DNA from: Actinomycetota bacterium
GTDB lineage: Bacteria > Actinomycetota > Geothermincolia > Geothermincolales > RBG-13-55-18
Direction: 5' to 3'
Assembly (NCBI GenBank): GCA_028697145.1
Contig: JAQVFR010000007.1
Location: 31,887-95,886 of the forward strand
Length of the DNA stretch: 64,000 nt
This document shows, in pieces, positions 7,583 through 33,728 of this stretch. The translations under genes were made by a program, and so were the position numbers. The notes under the pieces are model-generated. The model was given only the letters and a program-made list of their open reading frames with translations, searched no databases and was not told where the DNA came from. The stretch's first letter is position 1. Every line of letters begins with the position of its first letter.

Positions 7583-7592
7583 GGATGGACCC

Positions 7593-8234
7593 ATGGACGA
7601 CAAGAGAGACTTGCTGGACGCCATCGCCGCGGCGGTGAGGCGGGGGTCCGAGGAACAAGCGGTGGTCCTGTGCGAAAAGGCCGTCGACTCGGGCATGTAT
7701 GGCCGCGAGGTGATCCGGGAGGGCCTCTGCACCGGCATGCAGAAGGCTGGCGAACTCTACGAGAAGCACGAGTACTTCCTTCCCGAGCTCCTTCTCGCCT
7801 CGGAGACGATGCGCGCCGCCATCGAGGTCGTCGTCCCCTCGCTGCTGCCCGCGGAGAGGGCGGAGGCCGGAGAGGCCGTCGTGCTGGGTGTGGTCGCGGG
7901 CGACGTGCACGAGATCGGCAAGAACCTGGTGGCGGTGATGCTGGAGGCCGACGGCTACCGCGTCACGGACCTGGGATACGACGTGGCCCCCGAGAGGTTC
8001 ATCGCGGAGCTCGACAACGGTGGCGCCCGCATCCTGGCCCTCTCCACCATGATGACCACCACTTTGCCCAACATGCGCATGACGGTGGAGCTGGCGCGGG
8101 CGCTCGATCCCCGGCCCCTGATACTGGTGGGGGGCGCCCCGCTCTCCGCGAGCGTCGCCGCGGACATGGGCGCCGACGGCTACGAGGACAACGCCGCCAG
8201 GGTGCCCGCGCTCATCAGGAGATTGTTGCCGTAG
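7593..8234 (+). CDS. Corrinoid (B12-binding) methyltransferase protein, copy 1
   Basis: This 213-residue protein has the two domains of MtaC/MttC-type carriers: an N-terminal helical B12-binding-2 cap (about 1-85) and a Rossmann B12 domain. The cobalt-ligating motif D-x-H-x-x-G is GDVHEIG, with His106 as the lower ligand. Near the C-terminus lies the conserved LVGGAP and ADGYEDNA. It carries a methyl group on Co(I)/Co(III) for its neighbour, the UroD-type methyltransferase 10 bp upstream, and the two genes surely form an operon. Related copies lie at 26346 and 33092. No corrinoid reactivation protein (RamA or RACo type) is in the window. Confidence 0.92.
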   Translation: MDDKRDLLDAIAAAVRRGSEEQAVVLCEKAVDSGMYGREVIREGLCTGMQKAGELYEKHEYFLPELLLASETMRAAIEVVVPSLLPAERAEAGEAVVLGVVAGDVHEIGKNLVAVMLEADGYRVTDLGYDVAPERFIAELDNGGARILALSTMMTTTLPNMRMTVELARALDPRPLILVGGAPLSASVAADMGADGYEDNAARVPALIRRLLP

Positions 8235-10845: not shown

Positions 10846-11409
10846 ATGGCATTGACCTACGGCACCGACGAGTGGAACCAGGCCTACGACGCGCTGGTGA
10901 AGGAACGGCTGGACAGCCAGTCCAAGCCCTACGTCATGGGCACCCCGGAATGGGTCAAGCAGTATGAGGAGCTTATCCAGAACGACGCGGAGTACAAGGA
11001 GGCCGCCAAGGACTGGGAGGGCTCGGTGGTCATCAAGATCCTGGCCAAGCCGGACATCGGGCTGGACAAAGACCTCTACATGTTCATGGACCTCTGGCAC
11101 GGCGACTGCCGCTTCGTGAAGATCGTTCCCGCCGAGGTCGGCGAGGCCGGCGATTTCGTCATCACCGGCGAATACGATCGCTGGAAGGCGGTCATGTCCA
11201 AGGAGCTGGACACCATCAAGGGCATGATGCAGGGCAAGCTCAAGCTCAAGGGAGACCTGCCCACCATCGTGCGCGCGGTGAAGGCGGCGTCGCGCCTGGT
11301 GGACCTCTCCGCCATCACGGAGCCGAGGTTCCCCGACGAGCTCGATGAGGCGGGTACCGAGGATCTGAGGGCTCTTCTCAAGAGGGCCGAGGACGAGCTC
11401 GGCATTTAG
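10846..11409 (+). CDS. SCP2 sterol-carrier-domain protein, copy 1
   Basis: ATG at 10846 follows GAGGAGGGATACGT; 187 residues, no signal peptide. The middle of the protein (about 60-150) fits the SCP2 fold: a conserved FVITGEYDRWKAVM segment is followed by the MQGKLKLKGD motif typical of SCP2 domains. SCP2 proteins bind fatty acyl or sterol-like ligands in a hydrophobic tunnel. It is followed by a strong hairpin and then by alcohol dehydrogenase, another SCP2 protein and aldehyde oxidoreductase, so it probably presents a hydrophobic substrate to those enzymes. Confidence 0.82.
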   Translation: MALTYGTDEWNQAYDALVKERLDSQSKPYVMGTPEWVKQYEELIQNDAEYKEAAKDWEGSVVIKILAKPDIGLDKDLYMFMDLWHGDCRFVKIVPAEVGEAGDFVITGEYDRWKAVMSKELDTIKGMMQGKLKLKGDLPTIVRAVKAASRLVDLSAITEPRFPDELDEAGTEDLRALLKRAEDELGI

Positions 11410-11560: not shown

Positions 11561-12724
11561 ATGGCCTACGACACGGATCTGTCATTCATCTACAAGAACC
11601 CCACGCGGATAGTCTTCGGCGTCAACTCGCTGAGGGACCTGGCCGCCGAGTGCAACGAGCTCAAATGCTCCAAGGCTTTCCTGGTCACGGACAAGGGGCT
11701 GGTCGAGGCGGGCCTGGCGGAGAAGGTGGAGGCGGCCCTGGGCAAACTGCACGTGGGCACCTTCGATGAATGCCCGCAAGACTCCGGCGTTCACATCGTG
11801 AACCAGGCCGCGGACATTGCCAGGGAAAAAGGCGCCGACATCCTCGTGAGCCTCGGGGGAGGAAGCGTCATAGATACGGCCAAGGGCGTGGCCATCCTCC
11901 TCAAGGAGGGGGGGAAGCTCGAGGACCACTACGGGCTGCAGCTGTTCACCCGCCCCCAGACACCCCACATCGCCATCCCCACCACCGCCGGCACGGGGAG
12001 CGAGGTGACCTGGGCCTACGTCGTGAAGGACTGGGAGAAGAACCAGAAGATACTGTGCGGCGACGACCATATCATCCCCAACACGGCGATCCTCGATCCC
12101 GTGCTCACCCAGGGCTTGCCGCCCAGGATCACCGCCTTCACCGGCATGGACGCCCTCACTCATGCCATCGAGGCCATACATGCCCTGCAGGCCGAGCCCA
12201 TCACCGACATCATGGCCTTCGGCGCTATCCGTCTGATCGTCCAGTACCTTCCCACCTGCGTGGAGAGCGGTGACGACCTCTTTGCCCGCGGGCAGCAGCA
12301 GATAGCCGCGACCACGGCCGGGATCGCCTTCTCCAACGCCCAGATCGGGCTGGTGCATGCCGCGGCCCATTCCGCGGGCGCGCTATACGGCGTGCCACAC
12401 GGGCTTGCCAACTCCATCCTCCTGCCCCACGTGATGAAGTACAACATGGACGAGTGCGCGGACCGCTACGCCCTGGTCGCCGACGCCATGGGGGTCAAGG
12501 AGAGGGGGATGGGGGACGAGGAGGCCACCCTGGCGGCGATAGACGCCGTATTCGCGTTGAGTAAGAGGATCGGCCTGCCGCAGAAACTCAGCGAGGTGGG
12601 CGTGGAGGAATCGGGCCTGGGGCAAGTGGCCGAGCTCTCTCTCTCCGATGGGGCCATCGTCTACAACCCGAAGCTCATCTACGAGTCCGAGCAGGTGATG
12701 GAGGTCCTGAAGGAAGCCTACTGA
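11561..12724 (+). CDS. Iron-containing (type III) alcohol dehydrogenase
   Basis: ATG at 11561 follows CCGGAGGAGG; 387 residues, the usual family length. The NAD-binding signature GGGSVIDTAKG lies at about 100-109. The metal ligands of group III dehydrogenases are Asp197 and His201 in DALTHAIEA, His266 in GLVHAAAH and His280 in GVPHG. It oxidises an alcohol to an aldehyde (or the reverse) with NAD(P). The aldehyde:ferredoxin oxidoreductase two genes downstream would take the aldehyde on to an acid. The flanking SCP2 proteins suggest a long-chain or polycyclic substrate. A 4-hydroxybutyrate-type substrate cannot be excluded. Confidence 0.92.
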   Translation: MAYDTDLSFIYKNPTRIVFGVNSLRDLAAECNELKCSKAFLVTDKGLVEAGLAEKVEAALGKLHVGTFDECPQDSGVHIVNQAADIAREKGADILVSLGGGSVIDTAKGVAILLKEGGKLEDHYGLQLFTRPQTPHIAIPTTAGTGSEVTWAYVVKDWEKNQKILCGDDHIIPNTAILDPVLTQGLPPRITAFTGMDALTHAIEAIHALQAEPITDIMAFGAIRLIVQYLPTCVESGDDLFARGQQQIAATTAGIAFSNAQIGLVHAAAHSAGALYGVPHGLANSILLPHVMKYNMDECADRYALVADAMGVKERGMGDEEATLAAIDAVFALSKRIGLPQKLSEVGVEESGLGQVAELSLSDGAIVYNPKLIYESEQVMEVLKEAY

Positions 12725-12777: not shown

Positions 12778-13194
12778 ATGGCGGACGTGAAGCTTGCGCC
12801 CGGCGCCGAGGAGGTGGCCATGGCGGTCATGATCTCGGACATGCTCAAGGCGAACATCGAGAAGCCCGAGAAGCTGAAGGACTTCAACAAGCTCAAAGCG
12901 CGTGTTTACATCCAGGCGAAAGACGCCGAGACCGAGATGACCATGGTCTTCGACCGCGGGAGTCTCACCGTGTACGGGGGCAAGGAGGGAAATCCGGACA
13001 TCTCCATCATCACCGACGCCGCCACCCTGCTCGATCTCGCCAATATCAACATCAAGTACGGGATGCCATGGTATTTCGACGAGACGGGCATGGCGGTGGT
13101 CAAGAAGCTGCTGAAGGGCGAGCTGAAGCTGCAGGGCATGCTCACCCATTATTTCGCCCTCAACCGGCTGACCAAGATAATGTCATTGAACTGA
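12778..13194 (+). CDS. SCP2 sterol-carrier-domain protein, copy 2
   Basis: ATG at 12778 is preceded by AAGGAGG; 138 residues, essentially a lone SCP2 domain. The C-terminal half has the family pattern DAATLLDLA followed by LLKGELKLQGM. It is only distantly similar to the copy at 10846 and lacks that protein's N- and C-terminal extensions. It lies 53 bp after the alcohol dehydrogenase and upstream of the aldehyde oxidoreductase, with the same orientation throughout. A role as lipid or sterol-like ligand carrier is inferred from the fold. Confidence 0.8.
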   Translation: MADVKLAPGAEEVAMAVMISDMLKANIEKPEKLKDFNKLKARVYIQAKDAETEMTMVFDRGSLTVYGGKEGNPDISIITDAATLLDLANINIKYGMPWYFDETGMAVVKKLLKGELKLQGMLTHYFALNRLTKIMSLN

Positions 13195-13317
13195 GACCCG
13201 ACGCACGCGGCGACATCAAAGTGGGAGGAAACGCGGCGTGCGGGACCCGGGGGCCCGCTGCAGGTTTGGCGGGCTTTGCCGCCGTCCGCGCGCCAGGTGC
13301 AGAATGAGGTGATGACT

Positions 13318-15180
13318 ATGGCTTTCGGCAACATGGGCAAAGCCCTGGAGGTGGACCTGACCTCAGGCACGATGTCCGAGTTCGAGATCGACGAGGCAAC
13401 ATACCGGGACTACATCGGGGGCGCGGGCCTCGCGGCCAGGCTGCTCTTCGACCGCGGCAACCTGGATGCGGGTCCCCTGGACCCGGACAATCTGCTCATC
13501 TTCGCCACGGGGCCGCTCACCGGCATAGGCTTCTCGGGCTCGAGCCGCCTCTCGGTGGGGGCGCGTTCGCCCCTGACCGGCATCTGGGGGCAGGCGTCAT
13601 GCGGCGGCAATTTCGGTCCCGAGCTGAAGAGGTGCGGCTACGACGCCGTGATCTTCAAGGGTAAGGCGGAGGCTCCGGTCTTCCTGCTTCTGGGCAACGA
13701 CTCCGCGGACCTGCTCCCCGCCGACGACCTCTGGGGCATGGACACCTACGAGGCCACCGATGCCCTCAAGGAGAGGCAGGGCAAGCAGGCCAAGGTACTG
13801 GCCATCGGCCCCGCCTCGGAGAACCTCATCCCCTACGGCACCATCATCAACGATTACGGCCACATCTTCGGGAGGGCCGGCATGGGCACGGTGATGGGCT
13901 CGAAGAACCTCAAGGCCGTCGTGGCCCAGGGCGACAGGAAGCCGGAGTACGCTGACCCCGAGAAGGTCAAGGCCATGCAGGAGGAGCACCGCGAGCTGAT
14001 CAAGGAAACCATCTTCTGCGGCGCCCTCTCCGCCTTCGGAACCGGGGCCAACATGGAAGCCAAGATGTTCGAGGGAGACGTCCCCACCCGTAACTGGGGC
14101 CAGGGCCTGTGGGAAGAGGGAGCGGAGAAGCTCTCCGGTATCGCCCTCGCCGATAACTTCATCGTGGACCACGGCAGCTGCCGCGGTTGCGCCGTCAGGT
14201 GCAAACCCGTGGTGGAGGTAAAGGACGGCCCTTACGCCATCCCCCAGGGACCGGGGCCGGAATACGAGACCCAGGCCGCCTTCGGCACCATGCTCATGAA
14301 CGACGACCTTGCCGCGGTATGCAAGGCCAACGATTTCTGCAACCGCTCCGGCATGGACACCATCACCTGCGGGGCCACCTTCGCCTGGGCCATGGACTGC
14401 TTCGAGCAGGGCATACTGAAACCCGAGGACTACGACGGCATCAAGCTGGAGTGGGGCGACATAGGCAACGTCCTGCAGCTACTTCCCGGCATAGTGGCCA
14501 GGGACGGCAAGCTGGCACAGCTCCTGGCCAGGGGCTCCCGCGCCGCCGCCGAGGAGGTCGGAAACGGGGCTGACGCCTTCCTCACCGACTCCAAGGGGCT
14601 CGAGGCGCCCATGCACGACCCCCGCTGCAACTGGGGGGACGGGCTGGCCTATGCCATCTCCATCCGCGGCGCCTGCCACGTCTCCAACATGACCTTCCTG
14701 CTGGAGTGGGGGGCCATAGAGTACCCGGAGATAGGGCTGGACAAGAACTACCAGAACCAGTCCGCCGAGTTCAAGGCGGAGGCGGCGGCCCTCACCGCGG
14801 ACATCGGGTGCATCCTCAACTCCGCCTGCTGGTGTGAGTTCCCGGGTACCGCTTATACCGTGACGCAGTGGGCCGAGCTCTTCAGCGCCGTGGCCGGCTA
14901 CGGGTGGGACGTCGAGAAGATGATGGAGGCAGGGGCCCGCGTATGGTTCCTGCAGCGCAGCCTGGGTCATATCTGGGGCGCCACCGGCGCGGACGACCGC
15001 ATCGGCCAGCGCATCATGACCCCCGTGGAAGACGGCGGTATCGCCGGCTCCGTCCCCGACATGGACACCATGCTGCGCGAGTTCTACGAGTACCGCGGCA
15101 TGACGCCGGACGGCATGCCCACCCGCGAGGTGCTCGAGAAATACGGCCTCGGCGACGTCGCCGACAAGATTAACCTTTGA
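13318..15180 (+). CDS. Aldehyde:ferredoxin oxidoreductase (tungsten/molybdenum bis-pterin enzyme)
   Basis: Of two nearby ATGs, 13318 sits seven bases after GAGGT and is preferred over 13312; the protein has 620 residues, normal for AOR. The cluster ligands are at Cys288, Cys291 and Cys295 in CRGCAVRC, the same numbering as the Pyrococcus furiosus enzyme, and the fourth is one of Cys498, 504 or 506. The N-terminal AOR domain has GGAGLAARLL and GRAGMGTVMGSKNLKAV. The enzyme oxidises aldehydes to acids and passes electrons to ferredoxin in the cytoplasm. Its partners here are the alcohol dehydrogenase upstream and the SDR downstream. MobA and FdhD at 37-39 kb may help supply or insert its cofactor. 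Confidence 0.95.
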   Translation: MAFGNMGKALEVDLTSGTMSEFEIDEATYRDYIGGAGLAARLLFDRGNLDAGPLDPDNLLIFATGPLTGIGFSGSSRLSVGARSPLTGIWGQASCGGNFGPELKRCGYDAVIFKGKAEAPVFLLLGNDSADLLPADDLWGMDTYEATDALKERQGKQAKVLAIGPASENLIPYGTIINDYGHIFGRAGMGTVMGSKNLKAVVAQGDRKPEYADPEKVKAMQEEHRELIKETIFCGALSAFGTGANMEAKMFEGDVPTRNWGQGLWEEGAEKLSGIALADNFIVDHGSCRGCAVRCKPVVEVKDGPYAIPQGPGPEYETQAAFGTMLMNDDLAAVCKANDFCNRSGMDTITCGATFAWAMDCFEQGILKPEDYDGIKLEWGDIGNVLQLLPGIVARDGKLAQLLARGSRAAAEEVGNGADAFLTDSKGLEAPMHDPRCNWGDGLAYAISIRGACHVSNMTFLLEWGAIEYPEIGLDKNYQNQSAEFKAEAAALTADIGCILNSACWCEFPGTAYTVTQWAELFSAVAGYGWDVEKMMEAGARVWFLQRSLGHIWGATGADDRIGQRIMTPVEDGGIAGSVPDMDTMLREFYEYRGMTPDGMPTREVLEKYGLGDVADKINL

Positions 15181-16383: not shown

Positions 16384-16848
16384 TTGCCTAGCTGGAAGGA
16401 CGACGTGGAAGTACTGGTCGACGAGGGCAAGATTAGCGTCCCCTATTCCTGGACGGTGGGGAGCACTTTGAGCCGTTTCTACTGCGAACTGCGGGACAAC
16501 GGCAAGATCTGGGGCAACCGCTGCCCCAGCTGCGGTAAGGTCTTCGTCCCCCCCAAGATCAAGTGCATAGACTGCTACGAGGATCTCCGCGATTGGGTGA
16601 TGTTGCCGGGAACCGGCACGGTGGAGACCTACACGGTGGTTCGCTACCAGGAGCCCGTGCTCCATCCCCGCAAGGCGCCATTCGTCTACGGGGTGATAAA
16701 GCTGGATGGGGCGGACACGGGCATGGTCCACTTCATAGGCGGCGTGGACCCGGAAGAGGTAAAAGTCGGCATGCGTGTGGAAGCGGTAATCGAGGGTGAG
16801 CGCGAGGGTAACATCCTCGATATCAAGCACTTCCGCCCCATAAAGTAG
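16384..16848 (+). CDS. DUF35 OB-fold/zinc-ribbon protein A (thiolase-fold partner)
   Basis: A TTG start at 16384, eight bases after GGGAGG, gives 154 residues. The N-terminal helix leads to a rubredoxin-like zinc ribbon with Cys47, Cys50, Cys61 and Cys64, then an OB fold (about 70-150). DUF35 proteins form complexes with thiolase-superfamily enzymes, for example in archaeal acetoacetyl-CoA thiolase/HMG-CoA synthase, in BbsAB and in the steroid side-chain aldolase Ltp2-ChsH2. The thiolase-like gene starts 18 bp downstream, so a complex is likely. The 229 bp upstream are AT-rich and probably hold the promoter, but no clear boxes were found. Confidence 0.88.
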   Translation: MPSWKDDVEVLVDEGKISVPYSWTVGSTLSRFYCELRDNGKIWGNRCPSCGKVFVPPKIKCIDCYEDLRDWVMLPGTGTVETYTVVRYQEPVLHPRKAPFVYGVIKLDGADTGMVHFIGGVDPEEVKVGMRVEAVIEGEREGNILDIKHFRPIK

Positions 16849-16866
16849 GGAAGCGGGGTGAGATAC

Positions 16867-18009
16867 ATGGAAAAAGTAGCGATAATCGGCGTGGGCATGA
16901 CCAAATACGACCGCAACAGCCCGCTCACCTTCGCGGAGATGGTCTTCGAGGCCACGAGCAAGGCCATCGAGGACGCGGGGATATCCAAGGACGACGTGGA
17001 TAACGTCGTCACCGTCAGCAGCGACTTCTGGGACGGCCGCACCATCTCGACCATGGCCGTGACCGACGCCTCCAATGCCTACGGCAGGGATATCACCTGC
17101 GTCGAGGGCGACGGGACATTCGGAGCGCTCTACGGCATGATGCGCATCCTCTCGGGCACGTTCGGCATCACCATCGTCTGCGCCCATCACAAGGGCACCG
17201 AGAGCAGCATGAACGGCATAACCAACTGCGCCTTCGACCCCCTGGTGGAGAGGAAGCTCGGCCTCGACGCCGTCTCCTCGGCGGCGTTGCAGGCGCGCAG
17301 GTACATGGAAAAGCACGGCCTGCTGGAGGAGCAGTTCGCGCTGGTATCGGTGAAGAACCACGGCAATGCGATGCGCAATCCCCGGTCCCTCCTGCCCATG
17401 GAGATAACGGTGGACGACGTGATGAACTCGCGCAAGATCGCCGACCCGCTCAAGCTCCTCGACTGCTCCCCCGTGACCGATGGCGCCTGCACCCTGGTGC
17501 TGGCACCGGAGCGCCAGGCCAAGAAGCTTACCACCACCAAGAAGCGGGTATGGATGAAGGGCGTGGGCCACTGCACCGATGCTTTCCGCCTCGGGGACCG
17601 CGACCTGGCGGACACCCGGGCTTTGAAGAAAGCCGCTAAGCGCGCCTACGACATGGCCGGCATCGTCGATCCCCGCGAGGAGATCGACTTCGCCGAGGTC
17701 TACGACGCTTTCTCCTACATGGAGCCGCTGTGGCTGGAGGGGCTGGGCATCTGCGACGACGGCAAGGGCTGCGAGTACCTGGAGCGCGGCTGGTTCGACT
17801 ACGGCGGCAAGCTCCCCGTGAATCCCTCCGGCGGCCGCCTCTCGGCCAATCCCGTGCAGGCCGCCGGCCTCTACGCCATGGCCGAAGCCACGCTGCAGCT
17901 GCGCGGCAAGGCGGGGAAGCACCAGGTAAGGGGCGCCGGGACCGCGCTGGTCCACGGCATCAACGGCATGTGCGGTCAGTCCCACTGTGTCTGGATCCTG
18001 GGAAGATAA
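16867..18009 (+). CDS. Thiolase-fold protein A lacking the canonical catalytic Cys and His
   Basis: The ATG at 16867 sits behind GGGGTG and gives MEKVAIIGVG (380 residues); a GTG nine bases upstream is the alternative. It is a SCP-x/archaeal-type thiolase-superfamily protein. By eye, the nucleophilic-Cys loop reads CVEGDGTFGA, with Glu80 roughly where the Cys should be. The GHP histidine motif is replaced by SANP (Asn328). A C-terminal GMCGQSH could still hold a thiol. It therefore may catalyse something other than thiolysis, for example a retro-aldol cleavage as in Ltp2. It sits between DUF35 A and thiolase-fold protein B in a tight operon. Confidence 0.85.
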   Translation: MEKVAIIGVGMTKYDRNSPLTFAEMVFEATSKAIEDAGISKDDVDNVVTVSSDFWDGRTISTMAVTDASNAYGRDITCVEGDGTFGALYGMMRILSGTFGITIVCAHHKGTESSMNGITNCAFDPLVERKLGLDAVSSAALQARRYMEKHGLLEEQFALVSVKNHGNAMRNPRSLLPMEITVDDVMNSRKIADPLKLLDCSPVTDGACTLVLAPERQAKKLTTTKKRVWMKGVGHCTDAFRLGDRDLADTRALKKAAKRAYDMAGIVDPREEIDFAEVYDAFSYMEPLWLEGLGICDDGKGCEYLERGWFDYGGKLPVNPSGGRLSANPVQAAGLYAMAEATLQLRGKAGKHQVRGAGTALVHGINGMCGQSHCVWILGR

Positions 18010-18023
18010 GGAGGTGACGTGAA

Positions 18024-19178
18024 ATGGGTAAAAGAGTAGGTATCATCGGAGTAGGTCAGACCCACCACGCCGCCAAGCGCCTCGACGCCTCCGGAGTGGA
18101 GCTCATCGCCGAGGCCGTCACCCGGGCTCTGGACGACGCGCAGCTGACCATGGCCGATATCGACGCCATCGTCGTCGGCAACATGGACCACTTCGAGAAC
18201 ATCAACTACGTCGACGGCTGGGCGGTGGACGGGCTGGGCGCCTGCATGAAACCGGTGTTCAAGGTGACCACCGGCGGCACCACCGGTACCACCGTGGGCG
18301 CCTGCGGATACTACCATGCGGCCAGCGGGCTCTTCGACGTGGTCCTGGCCGTAGGCTGGGAGAAGAACTCCGAGTCCGACACGCAGGCGGCCATCGCCAC
18401 CTGCGCAAACCCGACGCTGGAGCGTGACCCCTTCGCCGGGGCTATCGGGCCCCTGGCCACCGAGTACTCCATGTACATGAAGGCCTTCGGGGCCACTGAG
18501 GAGGACTCCGCCAGGGTGGCGGCGAGAGACCGCAACAACGCCCTCAACAACCCCTACGCCCACTCGCGGCAGGCGGTGACCGTGGAGGATGTGCTCAACT
18601 CCCCCATGCTCTCCTATCCGGTGAAGTTCCTCGACATGTGCCCGCGTTCCGACGGGGCCTGCGCGGTCATCTTCGCCAACGAGGAGAAGGCCAAGAAGCT
18701 CTGCCCCAAGCCGGCATGGGTGCACTGCTCGGTGGTGCGCCACGACTACACCCACTTCGGGGACCTGGAGTGGAAGTTCATGCCCACCCTGGAGCGGGCT
18801 TCCGCGGAGGCTTACAGGCTGGCGGGCATCACCAATCCCCTCAAGGAGTTCGACGTGGCGGAACTCTACCTCCCCTGCTCCACATGCGGGGTGAAGTGGA
18901 TGGACTCCCTGTGGTTCTGCGAGCACGGCGGCGCACCGAAGCTCATCCGCAAGGGCACCTTCGACATGGACGGACAGCTGCCCATCAATCCATCCGGCGG
19001 GGTCATCTCCTGCAATCCCATCGGAGCCACCGCCCTCATCCGCGTGGGCGAGGCGGCCTGGCAGATCATGGGCAAGGCGGGCGACCGCCAGGTGCCGAAC
19101 GTGAAGAAAGCCCTGTGCACGGGGTTCGGCGGATGCAGCTGGACGGGCCTGATGATCCTGGGCGCGGACCTGCCCTGA
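18024..19178 (+). CDS. Thiolase-fold protein B lacking the canonical catalytic Cys and His
   Basis: ATG at 18024 follows AAGGAGGTGACGTGAA; 384 residues. Same superfamily as the preceding gene but clearly divergent. The segment aligned with the nucleophile loop is VTTGGTTG (residues 81-88), with no Cys, and the usual GHP is CNP (Asn331). The NPSGG stretch before it (322-326) is kept, so the fold is intact. It is followed 21 bp later by a second DUF35 protein. Proteins A and B may form a hetero-oligomer or two separate enzymes with their own DUF35 partners. The substrate is unknown, but the neighbouring CoA ligases and hydroxyacyl-CoA dehydrogenase point to an acyl-CoA. Confidence 0.85.
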   Translation: MGKRVGIIGVGQTHHAAKRLDASGVELIAEAVTRALDDAQLTMADIDAIVVGNMDHFENINYVDGWAVDGLGACMKPVFKVTTGGTTGTTVGACGYYHAASGLFDVVLAVGWEKNSESDTQAAIATCANPTLERDPFAGAIGPLATEYSMYMKAFGATEEDSARVAARDRNNALNNPYAHSRQAVTVEDVLNSPMLSYPVKFLDMCPRSDGACAVIFANEEKAKKLCPKPAWVHCSVVRHDYTHFGDLEWKFMPTLERASAEAYRLAGITNPLKEFDVAELYLPCSTCGVKWMDSLWFCEHGGAPKLIRKGTFDMDGQLPINPSGGVISCNPIGATALIRVGEAAWQIMGKAGDRQVPNVKKALCTGFGGCSWTGLMILGADLP

Positions 19179-19199
19179 GGCGTGGAGGAGGTGACATCC

Positions 19200-19787
19200 A
19201 TGGGAATGTATAAAGACAAGCGCAAGACGACGCACACCCCCGAGGGTTACGAGCTCCTGACCCACGAGTCCGGCCACCTGGAATACGACTTCCACTGGCA
19301 CATGGGATACTACTGGAGCAAGTACCTCTCCGAGCTGCGGGACAACAAACGCTTCATGGGCGTCAAGTGCCCGAAGTGCGGCACGGTATACAACCCACCG
19401 CGCGTGAACTGCGGCAAGTGCTTCGTGGAGATGAACGAATGGGTCGAACTGGCCGACGAGGGCACGCTCGAGGGATTCACCATCGTGCGCTTTCCCTACA
19501 TCGACCCCAACAACGGCGGCATGAAAGACGTGCCTTTCACCTCCATCTGGGTAACCCTGGACGGAGCTGACACACGCATGATGCATTTCTGCAACGTCTA
19601 CGACGAGAGAGACCTCGAGGTAGGGATGCGCATGCGCGCCGTCTGGAACGAGAAACGCACGGGAAGCATCCACGACGTGAAGTACTTCGAGGTGGTCGAG
19701 GAGGCGAAGCCGGCGAAGAAGGCCGCGAAGAAGCCGGCGAAGAAGGCCGCCGCGAAGAAGCCGGCGAAGAAGGCCGCTAAGAAATAG
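19200..19787 (+). CDS. DUF35 zinc-ribbon/OB protein B with Lys/Ala-rich histone-H1-like tail
   Basis: ATG at 19200 follows GGAGGAGGTGAC; 195 residues. The zinc ribbon has Cys57, Cys60, Cys71 and Cys74, followed by an OB fold to about residue 165. The last 28 residues are only Lys, Ala and Pro in PAKKA units, encoded by a tandem DNA repeat (GCCGGCGAAGAAGGCCGC type, about 19701-19784). Such tails are known from histone H1 and actinobacterial HU proteins, where they bind nucleic acid, but they are not expected on a DUF35 protein. The tail might bind DNA, RNA, CoA, polyphosphate or membranes, or might be neutral. A strong terminator follows, ending the operon. Confidence 0.88.
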   Translation: MGMYKDKRKTTHTPEGYELLTHESGHLEYDFHWHMGYYWSKYLSELRDNKRFMGVKCPKCGTVYNPPRVNCGKCFVEMNEWVELADEGTLEGFTIVRFPYIDPNNGGMKDVPFTSIWVTLDGADTRMMHFCNVYDERDLEVGMRMRAVWNEKRTGSIHDVKYFEVVEEAKPAKKAAKKPAKKAAAKKPAKKAAKK

Positions 19788-19837: not shown

Positions 19838-19885
19838 TATAATCCATGCAGGCGGAAGTCTCGTATGATCAAGGGGGTTCATGTC

Positions 19886-21451
19886 ATGTGGAACATGCTC
19901 GACGAGGCGGCACGGGAGTACCCGGAAAAGATCGCCATCGTGCACCGGGAGCGGCGCATCACTTATGCGGAATACCTCGCTGAGGTGAACCTGCTGGCGC
20001 GAGGCCTCATGGCCCTTGGGCTCGAGCCGGGGGAGAGAGTAGGCCTGCTCATGCCCACGGTGCCGGAGCATGCTTTCGCCTTCCATGCCGTCATCAAGGC
20101 GGGCGGCGAGGCGGTGCTCTTGAACAACCGCCTGCAGGTGGAGGAGATGGAGTACCTGCTGGACGACGCAAGACCTGCTTTTATCCTCATGAATCCGCGG
20201 TTTCGGGACACCGACTTCGCGGCCATGCTGGCGGAGCCCATTGCCCGCCGGCAGCATATCCGCAAGGTGGTGACGCTGGGCGACACCGACCTGCTGCCCC
20301 ATGTCACGTGGGACGTATTGAGGGAAGGTGGCGGCGAGGTGAGCGAGGAGGAACTCCGCCGGCGGGAGGAGTCGGATGACGAAAAACGCAGCGTTACCGT
20401 CATCTATACCTCCGGGACCACCGGCGTGCCCAAAGGGGCCATGATCAGCGCCCGCAACATAAAATCCAACCTGGACGCCTGGAACGAGCGGCTGGACGTC
20501 GGCGAGAACGACGTGGTGGGGGTCTTCTTCCCCCTCTTCCACTCCGCCGGCACCATCGGGGGCGTGTCGGGCTGCGCCTCCCTCAAGGCCACCATGGTCC
20601 TGGACGACTTCAGTCCGGCCGAGGTGCTGCGCTACATCCACGAGGAGGGCATCACCGTGCTCGGAGGCGTGGCGGCCATGGCCGCCATCCTGATGCTCAT
20701 GCCCGGCTTCGAGGAGTACGACCTTTCATCCCTGCGCTTCCTGTTCATGGGGGCCGGACCCTGCCCCCCGGAGATCCTCCGCGACGTGAAGGAGAAGATG
20801 GGGGCGGACACGGTTATCGGGTACGGCCTGACCGAGTCCACCATGGGCAACGTCACCACCACCCTGCTGGAGGACAGCGAGGAACACAAGCTCCATACCA
20901 TCGGCCTGCCCCTGCCCGGCGTTGAGGTGCGGGTGGTGGACGAGAACCGGCGCGAGGTGCCCAGGGGAGAGATCGGCGAGATCGCCATCAGTGGGGAGAC
21001 GGTCTTCCTCGGCTACCTCAACCACCCGCAGGAAACGGCCCGGGTCCTGGACGGCGAGGGATGGCTCTATACCGGCGACCTGGCTTCCATGGACGAGGAC
21101 GGCTACCTGCGCATGGCGGGCAGGAGCAAGGAGATGTACATCCGGGGCGGGGAGAACGTCTATCCAAGCGAGGTGGAGGAAGTCATCACCCGCCACCCGC
21201 AGGTGATGCTCGCCGCGGTCATCGGCGTACCCCACCCCGTTTACGGGGAGGTCGGGCGCGCTTACGTCATGAGCCCCGGCGGCGGCGTGACTCCGGACGA
21301 GATCAAGGAATGGGTGGCGGAGCGCCTCGCCGATTACAAGGTCCCGGAGGAGGTCATCATCCGCGACATGCTCCCCCTCACCCCCGTGGGCAAGGTGCTC
21401 AAAAAGGAGCTGGAGAAAGAGATCCGCCGCGAGCGGGAAGCCGGAGAATAA
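19886..21451 (+). CDS. AMP-forming acyl-CoA synthetase/ligase 1
   Basis: The ATG at 19886 sits eight bases after AAGGGGG and begins MWNMLDEAA (521 residues); an in-frame ATG at 19865 would add seven residues. ANL-superfamily motifs: the P-loop YTSGTTGVPKGA, the adenylate motif YGLTE, the hinge region GWLYTGD followed by GRSKEMYIRGGENVYPSEVE, and the C-terminal lysine in PVGKVLKKEL. It activates a carboxylate to acyl-AMP and then acyl-CoA. The substrate class (fatty, dicarboxylic or aromatic) cannot be read safely. It would feed the thiolase-fold/DUF35 operon just upstream. Confidence 0.92.
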   Translation: MWNMLDEAAREYPEKIAIVHRERRITYAEYLAEVNLLARGLMALGLEPGERVGLLMPTVPEHAFAFHAVIKAGGEAVLLNNRLQVEEMEYLLDDARPAFILMNPRFRDTDFAAMLAEPIARRQHIRKVVTLGDTDLLPHVTWDVLREGGGEVSEEELRRREESDDEKRSVTVIYTSGTTGVPKGAMISARNIKSNLDAWNERLDVGENDVVGVFFPLFHSAGTIGGVSGCASLKATMVLDDFSPAEVLRYIHEEGITVLGGVAAMAAILMLMPGFEEYDLSSLRFLFMGAGPCPPEILRDVKEKMGADTVIGYGLTESTMGNVTTTLLEDSEEHKLHTIGLPLPGVEVRVVDENRREVPRGEIGEIAISGETVFLGYLNHPQETARVLDGEGWLYTGDLASMDEDGYLRMAGRSKEMYIRGGENVYPSEVEEVITRHPQVMLAAVIGVPHPVYGEVGRAYVMSPGGGVTPDEIKEWVAERLADYKVPEEVIIRDMLPLTPVGKVLKKELEKEIRREREAGE

Positions 21452-23126: not shown

Positions 23127-24350
23127 GTGGATAAAAGGAACGTCTTCGTGGCGGGCGCGGGGTACATGGGAAACGGCATCGCCCAGGTGGCGGCCCTGGC
23201 GGGATACGAGGTCGTGATGTGCGACGTCAGCGAGGGGTGCCTCGCCTCGGGCATGGAGGCCATCGAGAGTTCACTGGGCAAGCTCCTCTCCCGGGAGAAG
23301 ATCAGCGGGGAACAGGCCGAGAGGGCCCTGGCCTGCATAAGGACTACCTGCGACCTGAAGGAGGCCGCCGCAGCGGACATCGTTATCGAGGCCGTCCACG
23401 AGAATATAGAACTCAAGAAGGAGGTGTTCGCCAGGCTGGACGGGATCTGCCCGCCCCATACCATCATCGGGACCAATACCTCGGCCATCCCCATATCCTC
23501 CATCGCCGCCGCCACGTCCCGGCCTGACAGGGTGGTGGGCATCCACTTCTTCGGCCCCGTGCCGCTCATGAGACTGGTGGAGGTGATCAAGGGCCTGCTC
23601 ACCTCGGAGGAGACCATGGCCGCCGCGGACAACTGGGCGCGCAGCCTGGGCAAGGAGACGGTGCTGGTATTGAGGGATCATGCGGGCTTCGTGGCCAACC
23701 GCGCCAGCATGCCCTCCACCATCGAGGCGGTGTGCATGGTGGACGAGGGGCTGGCCACGCCCGAGGACATCGACCGCGCCACCGGCGGCTTCGACTTCGG
23801 GGTGGGGCCGCTGCAGATCATCGACAACGCGGGCCTGGACGTGGGCACAGGCGCGGCCATGGCCATCTACGAGGACACCCGCGACCCCAAGTTCTTTCCT
23901 CCCCCCCTGATGCGCCGCATGGTGACGGCGGGACTGCTGGGGCGCAAGAGCGGCAAGGGTTTCTACGCATATTCCGGCGGCAAGCGCGAGAGCTACCTGA
24001 ACGCCGGGAAGTTCGCCCACGAATCGAAGGACGAGCGTTCCCGCAGGCTGGCCATGCTGCTGCAGCGCTTCATCATACCCAACATGTTCGAGTCCGTTCG
24101 CCTGCTGGAGTCCGGGGTCTCCACGGCCCGGGATATCGACAAGGCCATCCGCCTGGGGTTCAACCTTCCCCAGGGGTTTTTAGAGATGGCCGACAGCCTG
24201 GGCCTGGATGCGGTCGTGGAGATGGGCACGGGGTTCTACGAGGAGACCGGGAGCGACAAGTTCTTCTCCCCTCCCCTGCTGCGGCGCATGGTGGCTGCAG
24301 GCCTGCTGGGGCGCAAGAGCGGCAGGGGGTTCTACGAGTACGAAGCCTGA
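23127..24350 (+). CDS. 3-hydroxyacyl-CoA dehydrogenase (HAD)
   Basis: A GTG at 23127 with AGAAGGAGGG upstream starts a 407-residue protein. The N-terminal Rossmann domain has GAGYMGNGIAQ; catalytic residues are His in HFFGP and the conserved Asn and Ser of TNTSA. Two 3HCDH C-terminal domains follow, each ending in GLLGRKSG(K/R)GFY, so the second is a duplicate of the first. It oxidises L-3-hydroxyacyl-CoA to 3-ketoacyl-CoA with NAD in beta-oxidation. No enoyl-CoA hydratase is fused or adjacent. It fits a pathway with the acyl-CoA ligases on both sides and the acyl-CoA dehydrogenase at 29943. Confidence 0.93.
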   Translation: MDKRNVFVAGAGYMGNGIAQVAALAGYEVVMCDVSEGCLASGMEAIESSLGKLLSREKISGEQAERALACIRTTCDLKEAAAADIVIEAVHENIELKKEVFARLDGICPPHTIIGTNTSAIPISSIAAATSRPDRVVGIHFFGPVPLMRLVEVIKGLLTSEETMAAADNWARSLGKETVLVLRDHAGFVANRASMPSTIEAVCMVDEGLATPEDIDRATGGFDFGVGPLQIIDNAGLDVGTGAAMAIYEDTRDPKFFPPPLMRRMVTAGLLGRKSGKGFYAYSGGKRESYLNAGKFAHESKDERSRRLAMLLQRFIIPNMFESVRLLESGVSTARDIDKAIRLGFNLPQGFLEMADSLGLDAVVEMGTGFYEETGSDKFFSPPLLRRMVAAGLLGRKSGRGFYEYEA

Positions 24351-24402: not shown

Positions 24403-24551
24403 GGTTTCGTCGGCTGGATGAAGGGAAATTACCGCATATCTCCGCGCATAGCGCCGGATCGATCTCTACGATCAGGCGTTGAGCGTGACGGAGGGGCGGG
24501 CTCGTGCGCAAGACCGCCGGGGAGGACGCATCAGATCGACAGGAGGGGAAC

Positions 24552-26207
24552 ATGGAAAAAATATGGCTGGAAAACTACGATTTCTTCGTGCCGGAGAGTA
24601 TCCGCTACCCTAAGATACCCCTGTATCAGCTGCTGGAGCTCACCTGCGTCAAGTACGACGAGAACGTGGCCACTATCTTTTTCGACCAGAAGCTGACCTA
24701 CGGTGAGCTGCGTGACCACGTACGCCGCATGGCCGCAGCCCTCAAGGGCATGGGGGTGGGCAAGGGCGACCGCGTAGCCCTCATGCTTCCCAACTGTCCC
24801 CAGTTCATCATCTCCTATTACGCCGTGCTGGAAGCCGGCGGCGTGGTGGTGAACGTGAGCCCCCTGCACGTGGAGCGGGAGCTGGAATACGAGTTCAACG
24901 ACTCGGGCGCGGAGACCCTGATCTATCTCGACCTCTTCGACGCGCGCATCCAGGCGGTGAAGGGCTCGAGCCCCCTCAAGCGCCTCATCGTCACCAGCAT
25001 CACCGATTACATGGAGACACCGGCGGACCCCTCGGCGGCCAAGGGACCGGACACCTTCTGGTTCCGGGAGGTCATCGCGGGCTCCAGCCCCGAGGTGCCC
25101 GACGTGGACATCGATCCCGGGGAGGACCTCGCCGCCCTGCAGTACACCGGCGGCACCACCGGCCTTCCCAAGGGGGTCATGCTCACCCACCGCAACCTGC
25201 TGGCCAATGCCTTGCAGTGCGCCCTGTGGGCCAAGGAGTTCTCGGAGCCGGGAAAGGACGTCTATCTCGACGTCATCCCCTTCTTCCACTCCTACGGCCA
25301 GACGGTGGGCATGAACAACGCCATCTTCAACGCCGCGACCATGCTGCTCATCCCGCAGTTCGAGATCAACATGATGCTGCAGGCCATCCAGAAGCACAAG
25401 CCCAACTTCTTCCCCGGGGTTCCGACCCTGTATGTGGCGATCCTCAGCCATCCCGAGGCCCTGAACTACGGCGTGGACAAGCTGAGGCTGTGCAACTCCG
25501 GGTCGGCGCCCATCCCCGTAGAGGTCATCAAGCAGTTCAGCGCCATATCCGGCGGCATCTTCAGCGAGGGCTACGGGCTCTCCGAGGCCTCGCCGGTGAC
25601 CCACTCCAACCCCATCATGGGCATGAGGAAGGTGGGCTCCATCGGGGTGCCCTTCCCGGACACCGAGGCCAAGATCGTGGACGCGGAGACGGGGACGCAG
25701 GAGCTGGGGGTGAACGAGCCGGGCGAGCTCATCATCCGCGGCCCCCAGGTGATGAAGGGCTACTGGGAGAAGCCGGAGGAGACGGAGGCGACGCTCAGGG
25801 ACGGCTGGCTCTACACCGGCGACATCGGCACCATGGACGAGGACGGTTACTTCTACATCGTGGACCGCAAGAAGGACATGATCATCGCCGGCGGCTTCAA
25901 CATCTACCCGCGCGAGGTGGACGAGGTCCTCTACGAGCACCCCAAGGTGCAGGAAGCCGTCACCGTGGGCATCCCCGACGAATACCGCGGCGAGACGGTG
26001 AAGGTGTACATCGTGCTCAAGGAGGGCATGGAGTGCACCGAGGAGGAGATCATCGCCTACTGCCGCGAGCGCCTCGCCGCCTACAAGGCGCCGCGCCTGG
26101 TGGAGTTCCGCGCCGAGCTGCCCAAGACCATGGTGGGGAAGATCCTGCGCAGGTCGCTGCGCGAGGAGGAGATCGCCAAGCGGAAGGCGGAGAAGGGCGA
26201 GGGCTAG
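24552..26207 (+). CDS. AMP-forming long-chain acyl-CoA ligase 2
   Basis: ATG at 24552 follows AGGAGGGG; 551 residues. A GTG at 24504 is in frame but has no good ribosome site. ANL motifs: YTGGTTGLPKGVMLTH for ATP, EGYGLSEASPV, GWLYTGDIG, DRKKDMIIAGGFNIYPREVDEV and the C-terminal lysine in MVGKILRRSL. The layout is that of long-chain fatty-acid CoA ligases (FadD-like), more so than ligase 1. It activates a carboxylic acid with ATP and CoA. It has its own promoter and terminator and so appears monocistronic. Confidence 0.94.
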   Translation: MEKIWLENYDFFVPESIRYPKIPLYQLLELTCVKYDENVATIFFDQKLTYGELRDHVRRMAAALKGMGVGKGDRVALMLPNCPQFIISYYAVLEAGGVVVNVSPLHVERELEYEFNDSGAETLIYLDLFDARIQAVKGSSPLKRLIVTSITDYMETPADPSAAKGPDTFWFREVIAGSSPEVPDVDIDPGEDLAALQYTGGTTGLPKGVMLTHRNLLANALQCALWAKEFSEPGKDVYLDVIPFFHSYGQTVGMNNAIFNAATMLLIPQFEINMMLQAIQKHKPNFFPGVPTLYVAILSHPEALNYGVDKLRLCNSGSAPIPVEVIKQFSAISGGIFSEGYGLSEASPVTHSNPIMGMRKVGSIGVPFPDTEAKIVDAETGTQELGVNEPGELIIRGPQVMKGYWEKPEETEATLRDGWLYTGDIGTMDEDGYFYIVDRKKDMIIAGGFNIYPREVDEVLYEHPKVQEAVTVGIPDEYRGETVKVYIVLKEGMECTEEEIIAYCRERLAAYKAPRLVEFRAELPKTMVGKILRRSLREEEIAKRKAEKGEG

Positions 26208-26260: not shown

Positions 26261-26345
26261 CTATATCAATGACACGCCGGCCTGAAATGAATAGAATATG
26301 CGGAGCAGCGTTCACGGGACTTGGATGAAAGGGCAGGTCGTGAAG

Positions 26346-26984
26346 ATGGATTGGGAGATTGAGCTAAAGCAGGCCATAAGCGAGGGAGACGAGATAAAGG
26401 CCGATGAGATAACGGCCAAGGCCCTGGAGGAGGGCGCCGCGCCCAAGGACCTCCTGGAGAAAGGGGCGGTGGCCGGAATCTACGAGGCGGGCAGGTTATG
26501 GCAGGAGGGCACTTATTTTCTTCCCGACATCATCCTCGCCACCGAGGCCTACAAAGAGGTGATGAAACGCATCGAGCCCCTGCTGAAGAGCGGCGACGTA
26601 TCCTACAAGGGAAAGGTGGTCATCGGCTCGATAGAGGGCGACGCCCACGACATCGGCAAGAACATCGTCATCGCCCTGCTGCGCAGCGCCTCCTACGAGG
26701 TGGTGGACCTGGGCGTGGACGTGCCCCTCGCGAGCTTCGTTGACAAAGCGCGCGAGGTGGAGGCCGACGTGCTGGGCATGGGCGCTTACATGACCACCAC
26801 CATGCGCGGCATGGAGGAGGTCATGCGGCTGCTGGCCGAGGCGGGCCTGCGGGACAGGGTGAAGGTCATAGTAGGTGGAGCGGCAGTGACCCGCGATTAC
26901 GCCGGGCAGATCGGCGCCGACGGCTACGGGGACAACGCCGCCGAGACGGTGGAGCTGGTGGACCGGCTGCTGGGGGTGGTCTAG
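26346..26984 (+). CDS. Corrinoid (B12-binding) methyltransferase protein, copy 2
   Basis: The ATG at 26346 (MDWEIELKQ) gives 212 residues, matching the lengths of the two other copies; earlier in-frame ATGs at 26298 and 26325 have no better ribosome site. It has a helical cap, then the Rossmann domain with GDAHDIGKN, His101 being the cobalt ligand, and IVGGAAVTR plus ADGYGDNA near the end. The stop codon abuts the ATG of the UroD-type gene at 26985, so the two are translationally linked. It shuttles a methyl group to or from that partner. Confidence 0.92.
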   Translation: MDWEIELKQAISEGDEIKADEITAKALEEGAAPKDLLEKGAVAGIYEAGRLWQEGTYFLPDIILATEAYKEVMKRIEPLLKSGDVSYKGKVVIGSIEGDAHDIGKNIVIALLRSASYEVVDLGVDVPLASFVDKAREVEADVLGMGAYMTTTMRGMEEVMRLLAEAGLRDRVKVIVGGAAVTRDYAGQIGADGYGDNAAETVELVDRLLGVV

Positions 26985-28253
26985 ATGGCGGACCTGGGCG
27001 CGATCAAACAGCAGATGAAGGTGATGATGAAACTGAGCAAGGCCATGGCCTACGCCTACGGTCTGCGCCTGGGGAAGCTCGACGGCTACGAGCGCCTCAT
27101 CGCGGGCATCTACGGCACCCCCGACCGCATCCCCATCCTCGCCCAGCCCTACACCTACGCCATGGGCATGCACGGCCTTTCGGCCCGGACCTTCTTCAGC
27201 GAGCCCAAGCCGTTCATCAACGCCTCCAGCAACTTCGCCCGCTACTTCGGCATCGATTTCTGGTCGCCGGTGTTCGACTTCTACAACATCGAGCTGGAGG
27301 CCATGGGGCAGAAGCTCATCTGGCGCGACCGCAGCGAGCCCGACGTGGACACCTCCGATCCCCTGATCAAAAGCGAGGACGACTTCGGGCGGCTGCGCCC
27401 CCCGGCCCCCGGGAAAGACGCCCGCATGCCATACGTGCTGGAATCATACCGGCGTTACCTGGACATCATGGGGGTCCCGCCCATGGTCTACGCCTGCTCT
27501 CCCTTCACCATGGCCGTGCTCATCCGCGGCTACGTGAATTTCGTGCGGGACATGCGCCGCAACCCCGCCTTCGCCCACCGCCTCATGGAGTTCCTGAGCA
27601 TGGAGGTGGTGGTGCCCTGGATCGACAAGATGGTCGAGGTAACCGGCGCCTCCATCTTGATCATGTCCGACGCCTGGGCCTCGCAGCCCAACGTCACCAC
27701 CGACATGGTGCGCGAGTTCTGCCTCCCTTACGTCGAGAAGATCATCCGCGCCACCAACTCGCCCCTGCGCACGGTGATGGACACGGGCAGCTGGGGCGAG
27801 CGCGCGGTGGATGATCCGCGCGAGGTGCTGGACATCAAGATGGACATGATGCTGCCCGGCAACGCCTTCAAGGCCCTGCGCCCCTTCTTCCTCCTGGTGT
27901 GGAACGAGGACTACGAGGAGGTGGGCATCCCCTTCGTGAAGGCCTACGCCGAGGAGAAGAAGGTCTGCCTGCTCGTCAACGTGCGACCCGACCTCATCGA
28001 GTCGGGGCCTCCCGAGGCCATCGTGGAGAACGTGCGCAAGCTCGTGCGGGAGGGGGCGGGCAGGGGCCAGACCGCCCTGCTCATCAACCTCGTGCCCATC
28101 GGCACACCGGTGGAGCACGTGCACGCGGCGGTGGCGGCGGCCAGGCAGTTCGGCGTCTATCCCATCATCCCAGACCTGGACACCCAGACCTTCCTCGCGC
28201 CGGAGTTCGTCCCCTTCGACGAGTGGGTGAGGAAGGAAGGCCTGCCGGTTTAA
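26985..28253 (+). CDS. UroD-fold corrinoid-associated protein without the MtaA zinc motif
   Basis: The gene starts at the base after the corrinoid-protein stop. The 422-residue product has the uroporphyrinogen-decarboxylase fold pattern (PDRIPILAQP near the N-terminus and a C-terminal VAAARQFGVYP), with a roughly 40-residue N-terminal extension. Unlike the homologue at 6434, the segment that should carry H-x-C reads TVMDTGSW and no late Cys is found, so a thiol-activating zinc site is probably absent. It may act on the methyl donor side, or use another activation mode. It is tightly paired with its own corrinoid protein, so a methyl-transfer role is well supported by context even though the substrate is not. 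Confidence 0.82.
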   Translation: MADLGAIKQQMKVMMKLSKAMAYAYGLRLGKLDGYERLIAGIYGTPDRIPILAQPYTYAMGMHGLSARTFFSEPKPFINASSNFARYFGIDFWSPVFDFYNIELEAMGQKLIWRDRSEPDVDTSDPLIKSEDDFGRLRPPAPGKDARMPYVLESYRRYLDIMGVPPMVYACSPFTMAVLIRGYVNFVRDMRRNPAFAHRLMEFLSMEVVVPWIDKMVEVTGASILIMSDAWASQPNVTTDMVREFCLPYVEKIIRATNSPLRTVMDTGSWGERAVDDPREVLDIKMDMMLPGNAFKALRPFFLLVWNEDYEEVGIPFVKAYAEEKKVCLLVNVRPDLIESGPPEAIVENVRKLVREGAGRGQTALLINLVPIGTPVEHVHAAVAAARQFGVYPIIPDLDTQTFLAPEFVPFDEWVRKEGLPV

Positions 28254-33091: not shown

Positions 33092-33718
33092 TCACCCCAG
33101 CAACTCCCTCGCTTTCTTCGCGGCCTCGAAAGCGTTGGGGGCGTAGCCGTCGGCGCCCGACTGGTCCGCGAACTCCTGGGTCACCGGGGCTCCACCCACC
33201 ATGATCACCGCCGCCTTGTCCTCGGCGCGCACCGCCTCCACCACCTCGGGGATGCGCTGCATGGTCGAGCTGAGCAGGGCGGACAGCCCCAGGATGTCAG
33301 GCCGGTGCTCGCGGTAGGCCTCGACGAACCGCTCCGTCTTAACGTCCTCGCCTACGTCCACCACCTCGAAACCGGTCCCCTCCAGGCACATGCGCACCAG
33401 GTTCTTGCCGATGGAGTGGATGTCGCCGTGCACCGTGCCCAGCAGCACCAGGCCGCTGCCCCTCTCGGGCCCGCCCAGGTGCGGCTTGAGCACCTCCATG
33501 CCCCGCTGCATGGCCTCGGCGGCCACGATGAGCTCGGGTATGAAGGCCTCGCCCCGCGAGAAGCGCTCCCCGATGTCCTCCATGGCGGGCATCATGGCCC
33601 CCTCCATGATCCGCCTCGGCTCCAATCCCTTCTCCAGGCCGTCGCCAACCAGTCTCCGCGCGTCCTCCTCCTCGCCCGCCAGTATCGCCTGCCTGATGCC
33701 GTCCAGGATGTCCTGCAT
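33092..33718 (-). CDS. Corrinoid (B12-binding) methyltransferase protein, copy 3
   Basis: 208 residues with AAGGAGG before the ATG. Cap domain, then GDIHSIGKN with His101 as the cobalt ligand and MVGGAPVT plus ADGYAPNA near the C-terminus. It follows the UroD-type gene by only 10 bp on the minus strand, so here the order is methyltransferase then corrinoid, as in copy 1. It carries a methyl group for that partner. It differs enough from copies 1 and 2 to suggest a different substrate system rather than a recent duplication. Confidence 0.92.
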   Translation of the reverse strand: MQDILDGIRQAILAGEEEDARRLVGDGLEKGLEPRRIMEGAMMPAMEDIGERFSRGEAFIPELIVAAEAMQRGMEVLKPHLGGPERGSGLVLLGTVHGDIHSIGKNLVRMCLEGTGFEVVDVGEDVKTERFVEAYREHRPDILGLSALLSSTMQRIPEVVEAVRAEDKAAVIMVGGAPVTQEFADQSGADGYAPNAFEAAKKARELLG

Positions 33719-33728
33719 GTCCGCCTCC

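Follow-up and report, generated by a model that had tools for sequence, protein, structure and literature searches.

A two-thiolase, two-DUF35 gene quartet from Geothermincolia represents a divergent anaerobic branch of the Ltp3/Ltp4 class and probably encodes a CoA-ester aldolase

What reaction could be carried out by two thiolase-fold proteins that have both lost the thiolase nucleophile, and that are encoded side by side between two DUF35 proteins? This question is raised by a four-gene locus at positions 16384-19787 of a 64,000-nucleotide stretch of DNA (the window) from an Actinomycetota bacterium of the class Geothermincolia (contig JAQVFR010000007.1, positions 31,887 to 95,886). A first-pass annotation had described the locus as a DUF35-thiolase-thiolase-DUF35 operon whose products lack the nucleophilic Cys and carry Asn in place of the His of the GHP motif, and alignment to solved thiolases confirms this description. 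Based on gene order, conservation, fold, family placement and residue replacements, we propose that the four genes probably encode a heterotetrameric, reversible CoA-ester (retro-)aldolase, with the second thiolase-fold protein, ThB, as its catalytic subunit.

The four genes all lie on the forward strand in the order DUF35a-ThA-ThB-DUF35b, with intergenic gaps of 9, 14 and 3 nucleotides; genes in this GC-rich genome were called with a codon-usage caller. DUF35a (16384-16848, 154 amino acids; Pfam PF12172 and PF01796) begins with a TTG start preceded by a GGGAGGTG site, and DUF35b (19182-19787, 201 amino acids) aligns with P0005. Both combine a zinc ribbon with an OB fold, matching the Pfam families zf-ChsH2 and OB_ChsH2_C, and in both the CxxC pairs are complete, with all zinc ligands of DUF35a present in CPSC...CIDC. 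The two inner genes encode ThA (16858-18009, 383 amino acids), the Ltp4-side subunit, and ThB (18024-19178, 384 amino acids), the Ltp3-side subunit, both of which match Thiolase_N and Thiolase_C_1 (the latter at 138 bits for ThA). AF2 models of ThA and ThB adopt the thiolase fold with mean pLDDT values of 91.3 and 90.6, respectively, and match structures of SCP2-thiolase, archaeal thiolase, BbsB, Ltp2 and Sal with TM scores of about 0.8-0.93; PhlC is also among their structural neighbours, and SCP2-thiolases and archaeal thiolases are no less close than Ltp2 among the solved relatives. Purifying selection acts on each of the four genes (dN/dS 0.03-0.27). The C-terminal tail of DUF35b is a histone-H1-like Lys/Ala/Pro repeat (AKKPAKKAA) that extends further in L052 and L059 and is missing from other relatives.

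Which of the two thiolase-fold proteins, if either, retains an active site? We set the active-site columns by alignment to solved thiolases and counted residues over 61 ThB and 58 ThA sequences. In the window's ThA, the nucleophile loop VEGDGTFG (17101-17124) places Gly86 at the Cys position, with Asp85 before it and a three-residue deletion after it; the HDCF motif has become YDAF (17701-17712), and GHP has become ANP, with Asn331 (17848-17850) at the His position. In ThB, the loop TTGGTTG (18267-18287; wider context VTTGGTTG) likewise has Gly for Cys, HDCF has become YLPC with Tyr282 (18867-18869) at the His position, and GHP has become CNP with Asn331 (19014-19016). The nucleophile Cys, HDCF His and GHP His of SCP2-type thiolases are thus replaced by Gly, Tyr and Asn in both proteins. 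The ThB replacements are constant in all 61 relatives, across bacteria and archaea, and the HDCF Cys is Pro in 58. Cys is likewise found in none of the ThA relatives, and their other two positions vary: the HDCF His is Tyr in 28, Ser in 14 and His in 11, and the GHP His is His in 27 and Asn in 26, so that the Ltp2/Sal-type Tyr of the window's own ThA is an unconserved feature. Thus, of the Cys-less pair described earlier, both members do lack Cys, but they are not equivalent, as a constant aldolase-type site is found in ThB only.

The earlier comparison with Ltp2-type retro-aldolases proves apt for ThB, which shares both Gly-for-Cys and Tyr-for-HDCF-His with the aldolases TcLtp2 and CtSal. Tyr282 aligns with Tyr294 of TcLtp2 and Tyr302 of CtSal, both shown to be catalytic by mutagenesis (PMC12329534). 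Because this aldolase-type half-site is constant in ThB, we consider ThB the likely catalyst. The alignment to solved thiolases placed Gly in the Cys column and Asn at the GHP His in both proteins, and no Cys elsewhere qualifies as a concealed nucleophile: Cys206 of ThB, although invariant, sits in a CPxSDGA turn where Cys also occurs in the SCP2-thiolase 6HSJ and in TcLtp2, and Cys371 and Cys285 are not conserved. In this genome, 10 of the 13 Thiolase_C_1 proteins are apparently Cys-less; these include two further single thiolase-fold genes, at L019:5268-7023 (C45, VEGGGGTGG) and L017:6946-8133 (C49, VDSGGNSSS).

To what known proteins, then, are ThA and ThB related? In an IQ-TREE phylogeny of 65 proteins, ThB groups with Ltp3 (support 100/99) and ThA with Ltp4 (97/96), the remaining group being supported at 100/99; the single-chain aldolases Ltp2 and Sal fall apart from both, with the SCP2-thiolases. 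A divergent pair in genome G037 (L068:1567-5277), in which ThB is fused to DUF35, is firmly placed in neither clade, and the branches that include it have support of only 47/24 and 70/93. Over its full length ThB shares 41% identity with Tsukamurella Ltp3, PRK08313 is its best NCBIfam match, and each window DUF35 matches both halves of a 309-residue OB-fold protein of the Tsukamurella Ltp4/Ltp3 locus. On the Tsukamurella tyrosinosolvens plasmid this unit reads F420 oxidoreductase, crotonase, AMP ligase, the 309-residue OB-fold protein, and thiolase-fold proteins of 359 and 390 residues, and a P450 and a steroid 3-ketoacyl-CoA thiolase are encoded close by; the Mycobacterium tuberculosis stretch fadD19, echA19, Rv3520c, Rv3521, ltp4, ltp3 consists of the same genes (PMC6429209). 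The literature describes Ltp3-Ltp4 as a heteromeric aldol-lyase acting on the C24-C25 bond in the side chains of sitosterol and campesterol (PMC6678751; PMC6593523), with its action on C24-branched sterol side chains credited in the former to Wilbrink 2012. The PDB copy we searched contained no Ltp3 or Ltp4 structure. The expectation that the system would be unlike anything known is not supported, as it is homologous to Ltp3/Ltp4 and the double-DUF35 protein of sterol degraders. ThB scores 366 bits against PRK08313 (cut-off 514) and ThA 164 against PRK07937 (cut-off 419), and the Tsukamurella proteins exceed these cut-offs, at 734 and 593 bits. Because the window proteins score under both, we assign them to a wider two-thiolase/two-DUF35 clade rather than to Ltp3/Ltp4 proper, whose expected reaction is aldol cleavage of a tertiary beta-hydroxyacyl-CoA. 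In this placement the quartet is a divergent, anaerobic offshoot of the Ltp3/Ltp4 class, which is itself poorly characterised.

This clade has a wide distribution and a fixed composition. Among the GTDB genomes scanned, the unit occurs in deltaproteobacteria (Desulfatibacillum, Desulfobacterales, Syntrophales and others), Spirochaetes, Anaerolineae, Acidobacteriota, Myxococcota, Acidimicrobiia, many Actinomycetes and Jordarchaeia archaea; within Geothermincolia, ThB orthologues of 79-96% identity occur throughout the class, and of 198 genomes drawn from the phylum, every class member among those listed has a match. Named relatives (Ca. Solincola and Ca. Geohydrothermomicrobium) put the lineage within or adjacent to Candidatus Geothermincolia, Actinomycetota. 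In 60 of the 62 loci whose flanks are complete, the thiolase-fold pair is accompanied by exactly two DUF35 domains, encoded either individually or within a single double-domain protein, which bears out the idea of two thiolase-fold and two DUF35 proteins as a conserved unit; one exception has a third DUF35 and the other is a stand-alone ThB. The 2.98-Mb genome itself has 13 Thiolase_C_1 genes, eight of which form four quartets, each DUF35-ThA-ThB-DUF35. Ltp3/Ltp4, which are known through genetic work on actinobacteria that degrade sterols, thus fall within a much wider family whose composition is fixed at two thiolase-fold chains and two DUF35 domains. Additional ThB genes that share 78-80% identity with the window copy occur at L078:6973-8124, L079:871-2022, G019:C7:206743, G020:C34:144428, G022:C41:10853 and G027:C226:8590; those inspected (L069, L070, L078 and L079) stand alone, with neither ThA nor DUF35 adjoining.

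How might such a complex work? Complex formation, residue roles, reaction direction and substrate are what we infer at this point. The four proteins may assemble into one heterotetramer, a two-gene version of the (DUF35-aldolase)2 complexes that Ltp2 and Sal form, in which each DUF35 would brace one thiolase-fold chain. The complex would reversibly convert a beta-hydroxyacyl-CoA to a carbonyl compound and a shorter acyl-CoA. ThB would carry the active site, with Gly in place of the nucleophile: Tyr282 would deprotonate the beta-hydroxyl in the forward direction, or give a proton in the reverse, the C-alpha/C-beta bond would break, and the resulting acyl-CoA enolate would then be protonated. 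Asn331, which replaces the GHP His, may hold the thioester enolate, and ThA would be a required partner with no constant thiolase or aldolase site of its own.

The system most like this one is Ltp3/Ltp4 (Rv3523/Rv3522) with Rv3521, which similarly has two unlike, adjacent, Cys-less thiolase-fold subunits, two DUF35 domains and CoA ligases nearby. The window's DUF35 domains are separate rather than fused, however, and the surroundings are of an anaerobe type: neighbouring genes encode an aldehyde:ferredoxin oxidoreductase (AOR), Fe-ADH, SCP2 proteins, CoA ligases, HBDH and corrinoid proteins, and no P450 or sterol-catabolic genes were seen among them. The Ltp2-ChsH2(DUF35) aldolase (PDB 6OK1) resembles ThB in its thiolase fold with a DUF35 partner, its Gly for Cys and its Tyr at the HDCF His, yet has a single kind of thiolase-fold chain (a dimer), uses Tyr344 as a second catalytic residue, and belongs to a separate clade. 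The Sal-Shy(DUF35) aldolase (PDB 9MYR) shares the Gly and the aligned Tyr but depends on an essential Cys304, which is Pro in ThB, and also has one kind of chain and a separate clade.

Several findings weigh against an aldolase with ThB as its catalytic subunit. Neither Ltp2 Tyr344 nor Sal Cys304 has a counterpart in the ThB alignment, where Asn331 and Pro stand instead; the job of the second residue would have to fall to the invariant Asn331 or to another residue. ThA shares only 27% identity with Tsukamurella Ltp4, and the scores below both NCBIfam cut-offs belong here as well. The Ltp3-Ltp4 reaction is itself based on genetics and reviews. The AOR gene lies beside the quartet in several members of the window's family, but proximity inside one family is inherited and not independent. 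Finally, ThA has invariant residues of its own and may not be passive.

Could the reaction be defined more narrowly? One special case of the aldolase model, which we regard as possible without favouring it, is an HMG-CoA-lyase-like cleavage of 3-hydroxy-3-(carboxymethyl)acyl-CoA to a beta-keto acid and an acyl-CoA. In anaerobes the beta-keto acid would pass to a beta-keto-acid cleavage enzyme (BKACE), which with acetyl-CoA would yield acyl-CoA and acetoacetate; outside anaerobes it would pass to a CoA ligase or transferase and a thiolase. A BKACE gene (PF05853) is found next to the quartet in 18 of 29 anaerobe-type loci, and within 10 kb of 28 of 49 ThB genes, in 20 of 22 genomes, against 0.9 expected and a maximum of 5 in 5000 simulations; the acyl-CoA carboxyltransferase used for comparison lies within 10 kb of none of the 49. 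Five loci (L088 and L094-L097; for example L094:1255-2628) encode a BKACE-DUF35 fusion, a pairing for which we found no description in the literature searched, and the neighbours of the quartet also include pairs of CoA-transferase genes and a thiolase that carries its Cys. By bookkeeping on the published Ltp3-Ltp4 scheme, in which C28 carboxylation and hydration are followed by C24-C25 cleavage and then thioesterification (PMC6678751), a beta-keto acid would be the product released there too. The BKACE link thus suggests a beta-keto-acid product, and an HMG-CoA-lyase-like reaction, for at least the BKACE-linked members.

This narrower proposal meets resistance in the window itself, whose quartet has no BKACE nearby despite three in the genome; in the Geothermincolia relatives G001, G005, G009 and G019, it is a quartet of the C13 type, not of the window type, that has BKACE 4-8 kb away. 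A linked acyl-CoA carboxylase that could make the carboxylated substrates was sought and is found within 10 kb of none of the 49 ThB genes. Moreover, BKACE could serve another step of the pathway, and its association with the quartet came to light post hoc, in related genomes chosen through ThB. Still more speculative is the extension to a heterotetrameric, thiolase-fold counterpart of HMG-CoA lyase, ranging from actinobacteria to archaea, that would cleave 3-hydroxy-3-carboxymethyl-type acyl-CoAs to beta-keto acids, be physically coupled to BKACE by the DUF35 fusions, and include Ltp3-Ltp4 as one specialisation. If this were true, anaerobes could dismantle branched acids with no ATP cost for re-activation. 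The analysis names a candidate for the catalytic subunit, ThB, and brings out a new, unexpected and statistically strong BKACE link with gene fusions. The BKACE gene at L089:10636-11499 and the adjoining DUF35b gene overlap by a few nucleotides. At L095:2635-3825 the other DUF35, the one not joined to BKACE, carries two fused SCP2 lipid-binding domains and belongs to the second of two tandem quartets.

Is ThA instead an enzyme in its own right? ThA could use Asp85 and Gln374 at the thiolase pocket, so that ThA and ThB carry out successive steps, a proposal we find doubtful. Asp56 and Gln374 (17977-17979, in the C-terminal loop) are invariant in all 58 ThA sequences, and Asp85, which adjoins the lost nucleophile, and Gln145 are each present in 57; these residues weaken the idea that ThA is simply inert, but they may serve the dimer interface, and the HDCF-His and GHP positions are free to change (Y/S/H and H/N), as they would not be in a functional thiolase-fold pocket. 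A C-acyltransferase or Claisen-type complex resembling PhlACB or BbsAB, in place of an aldolase, is improbable. It would share the fold and the DUF35 partnership, with BbsB, PhlC and archaeal thiolase as structural neighbours, and the benzoylsuccinyl-CoA thiolase BbsAB (PDB 7PXP) likewise pairs a zinc-ribbon OB protein with an SCP2-type thiolase fold in anaerobic catabolism. Thiolases of that type act through Cys, however, which is absent from every ThA and ThB; BbsAB has a single thiolase chain, and ThA and ThB score 147 and 120 bits on its equivalog models, far under the cut-off of 750. Similarly, the DUF35-partnered thiolase that works with an HMG-CoA synthase subunit shares the fold of ThA and ThB (TM 0.91-0.93) but retains its Cys (EAACASG). 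That the proteins are non-catalytic carriers or scaffolds, thiolase relics with lost catalytic residues, is very improbable given the low dN/dS, the invariant Tyr, Asn and Gly of ThB, and the four quartets retained in the genome.

If the quartet encodes an aldolase, what might become of its carbonyl product in this organism? On the forward strand upstream of the quartet, two SCP2 lipid-binding protein genes (10846-11409 and 12778-13194) flank an Fe-ADH gene (11561-12724) and are followed by AOR (13297-15180). Downstream on the same strand lie a CoA ligase (19865-21451), followed by a MATE transporter, a 3-hydroxyacyl-CoA dehydrogenase (23127-24350) and a second CoA ligase (24504-26207); Pfam and NCBIfam matches support the two ligases and the dehydrogenase named in the first-pass annotation. 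Within the window's family the upstream order SCP2, Fe-ADH, SCP2, AOR is kept and the downstream order of ligase and dehydrogenase largely so; outside the family this set of neighbours is mostly absent. AOR also lies beside the quartet, separately, in Anaerolineae (L086/L089), but as it occurs in only 2 of 29 anaerobe-type loci, it is a local trait and not a general partner. These neighbours suggest that the carbonyl product may be an aldehyde that is oxidised with ferredoxin by AOR and re-activated with CoA by a ligase. This would fit the order of events in bile-acid breakdown, where an aldehyde dehydrogenase (Sad) and a ligase act after Sal (PMC6678751). The system may account for missing steps in how branched or cyclic acids are degraded anaerobically, in lineages such as Geothermincolia and sulfate reducers.

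Three further observations concern other genes of the window and of related loci. The window contains three pairs of a corrinoid protein and a UroD-like methyltransferase (6434-8234, 26325-28253 and 33092-34826). Beside a Jordarchaeia quartet, on the opposite strand, is a predicted methylmalonyl-CoA-mutase-like pair (L080:4209-6296). A few kb from the C50 quartet, a putative HMG-CoA-synthase-like protein fused to a DUF35-like domain is followed by a Cys-bearing thiolase (L015:2771-5384).

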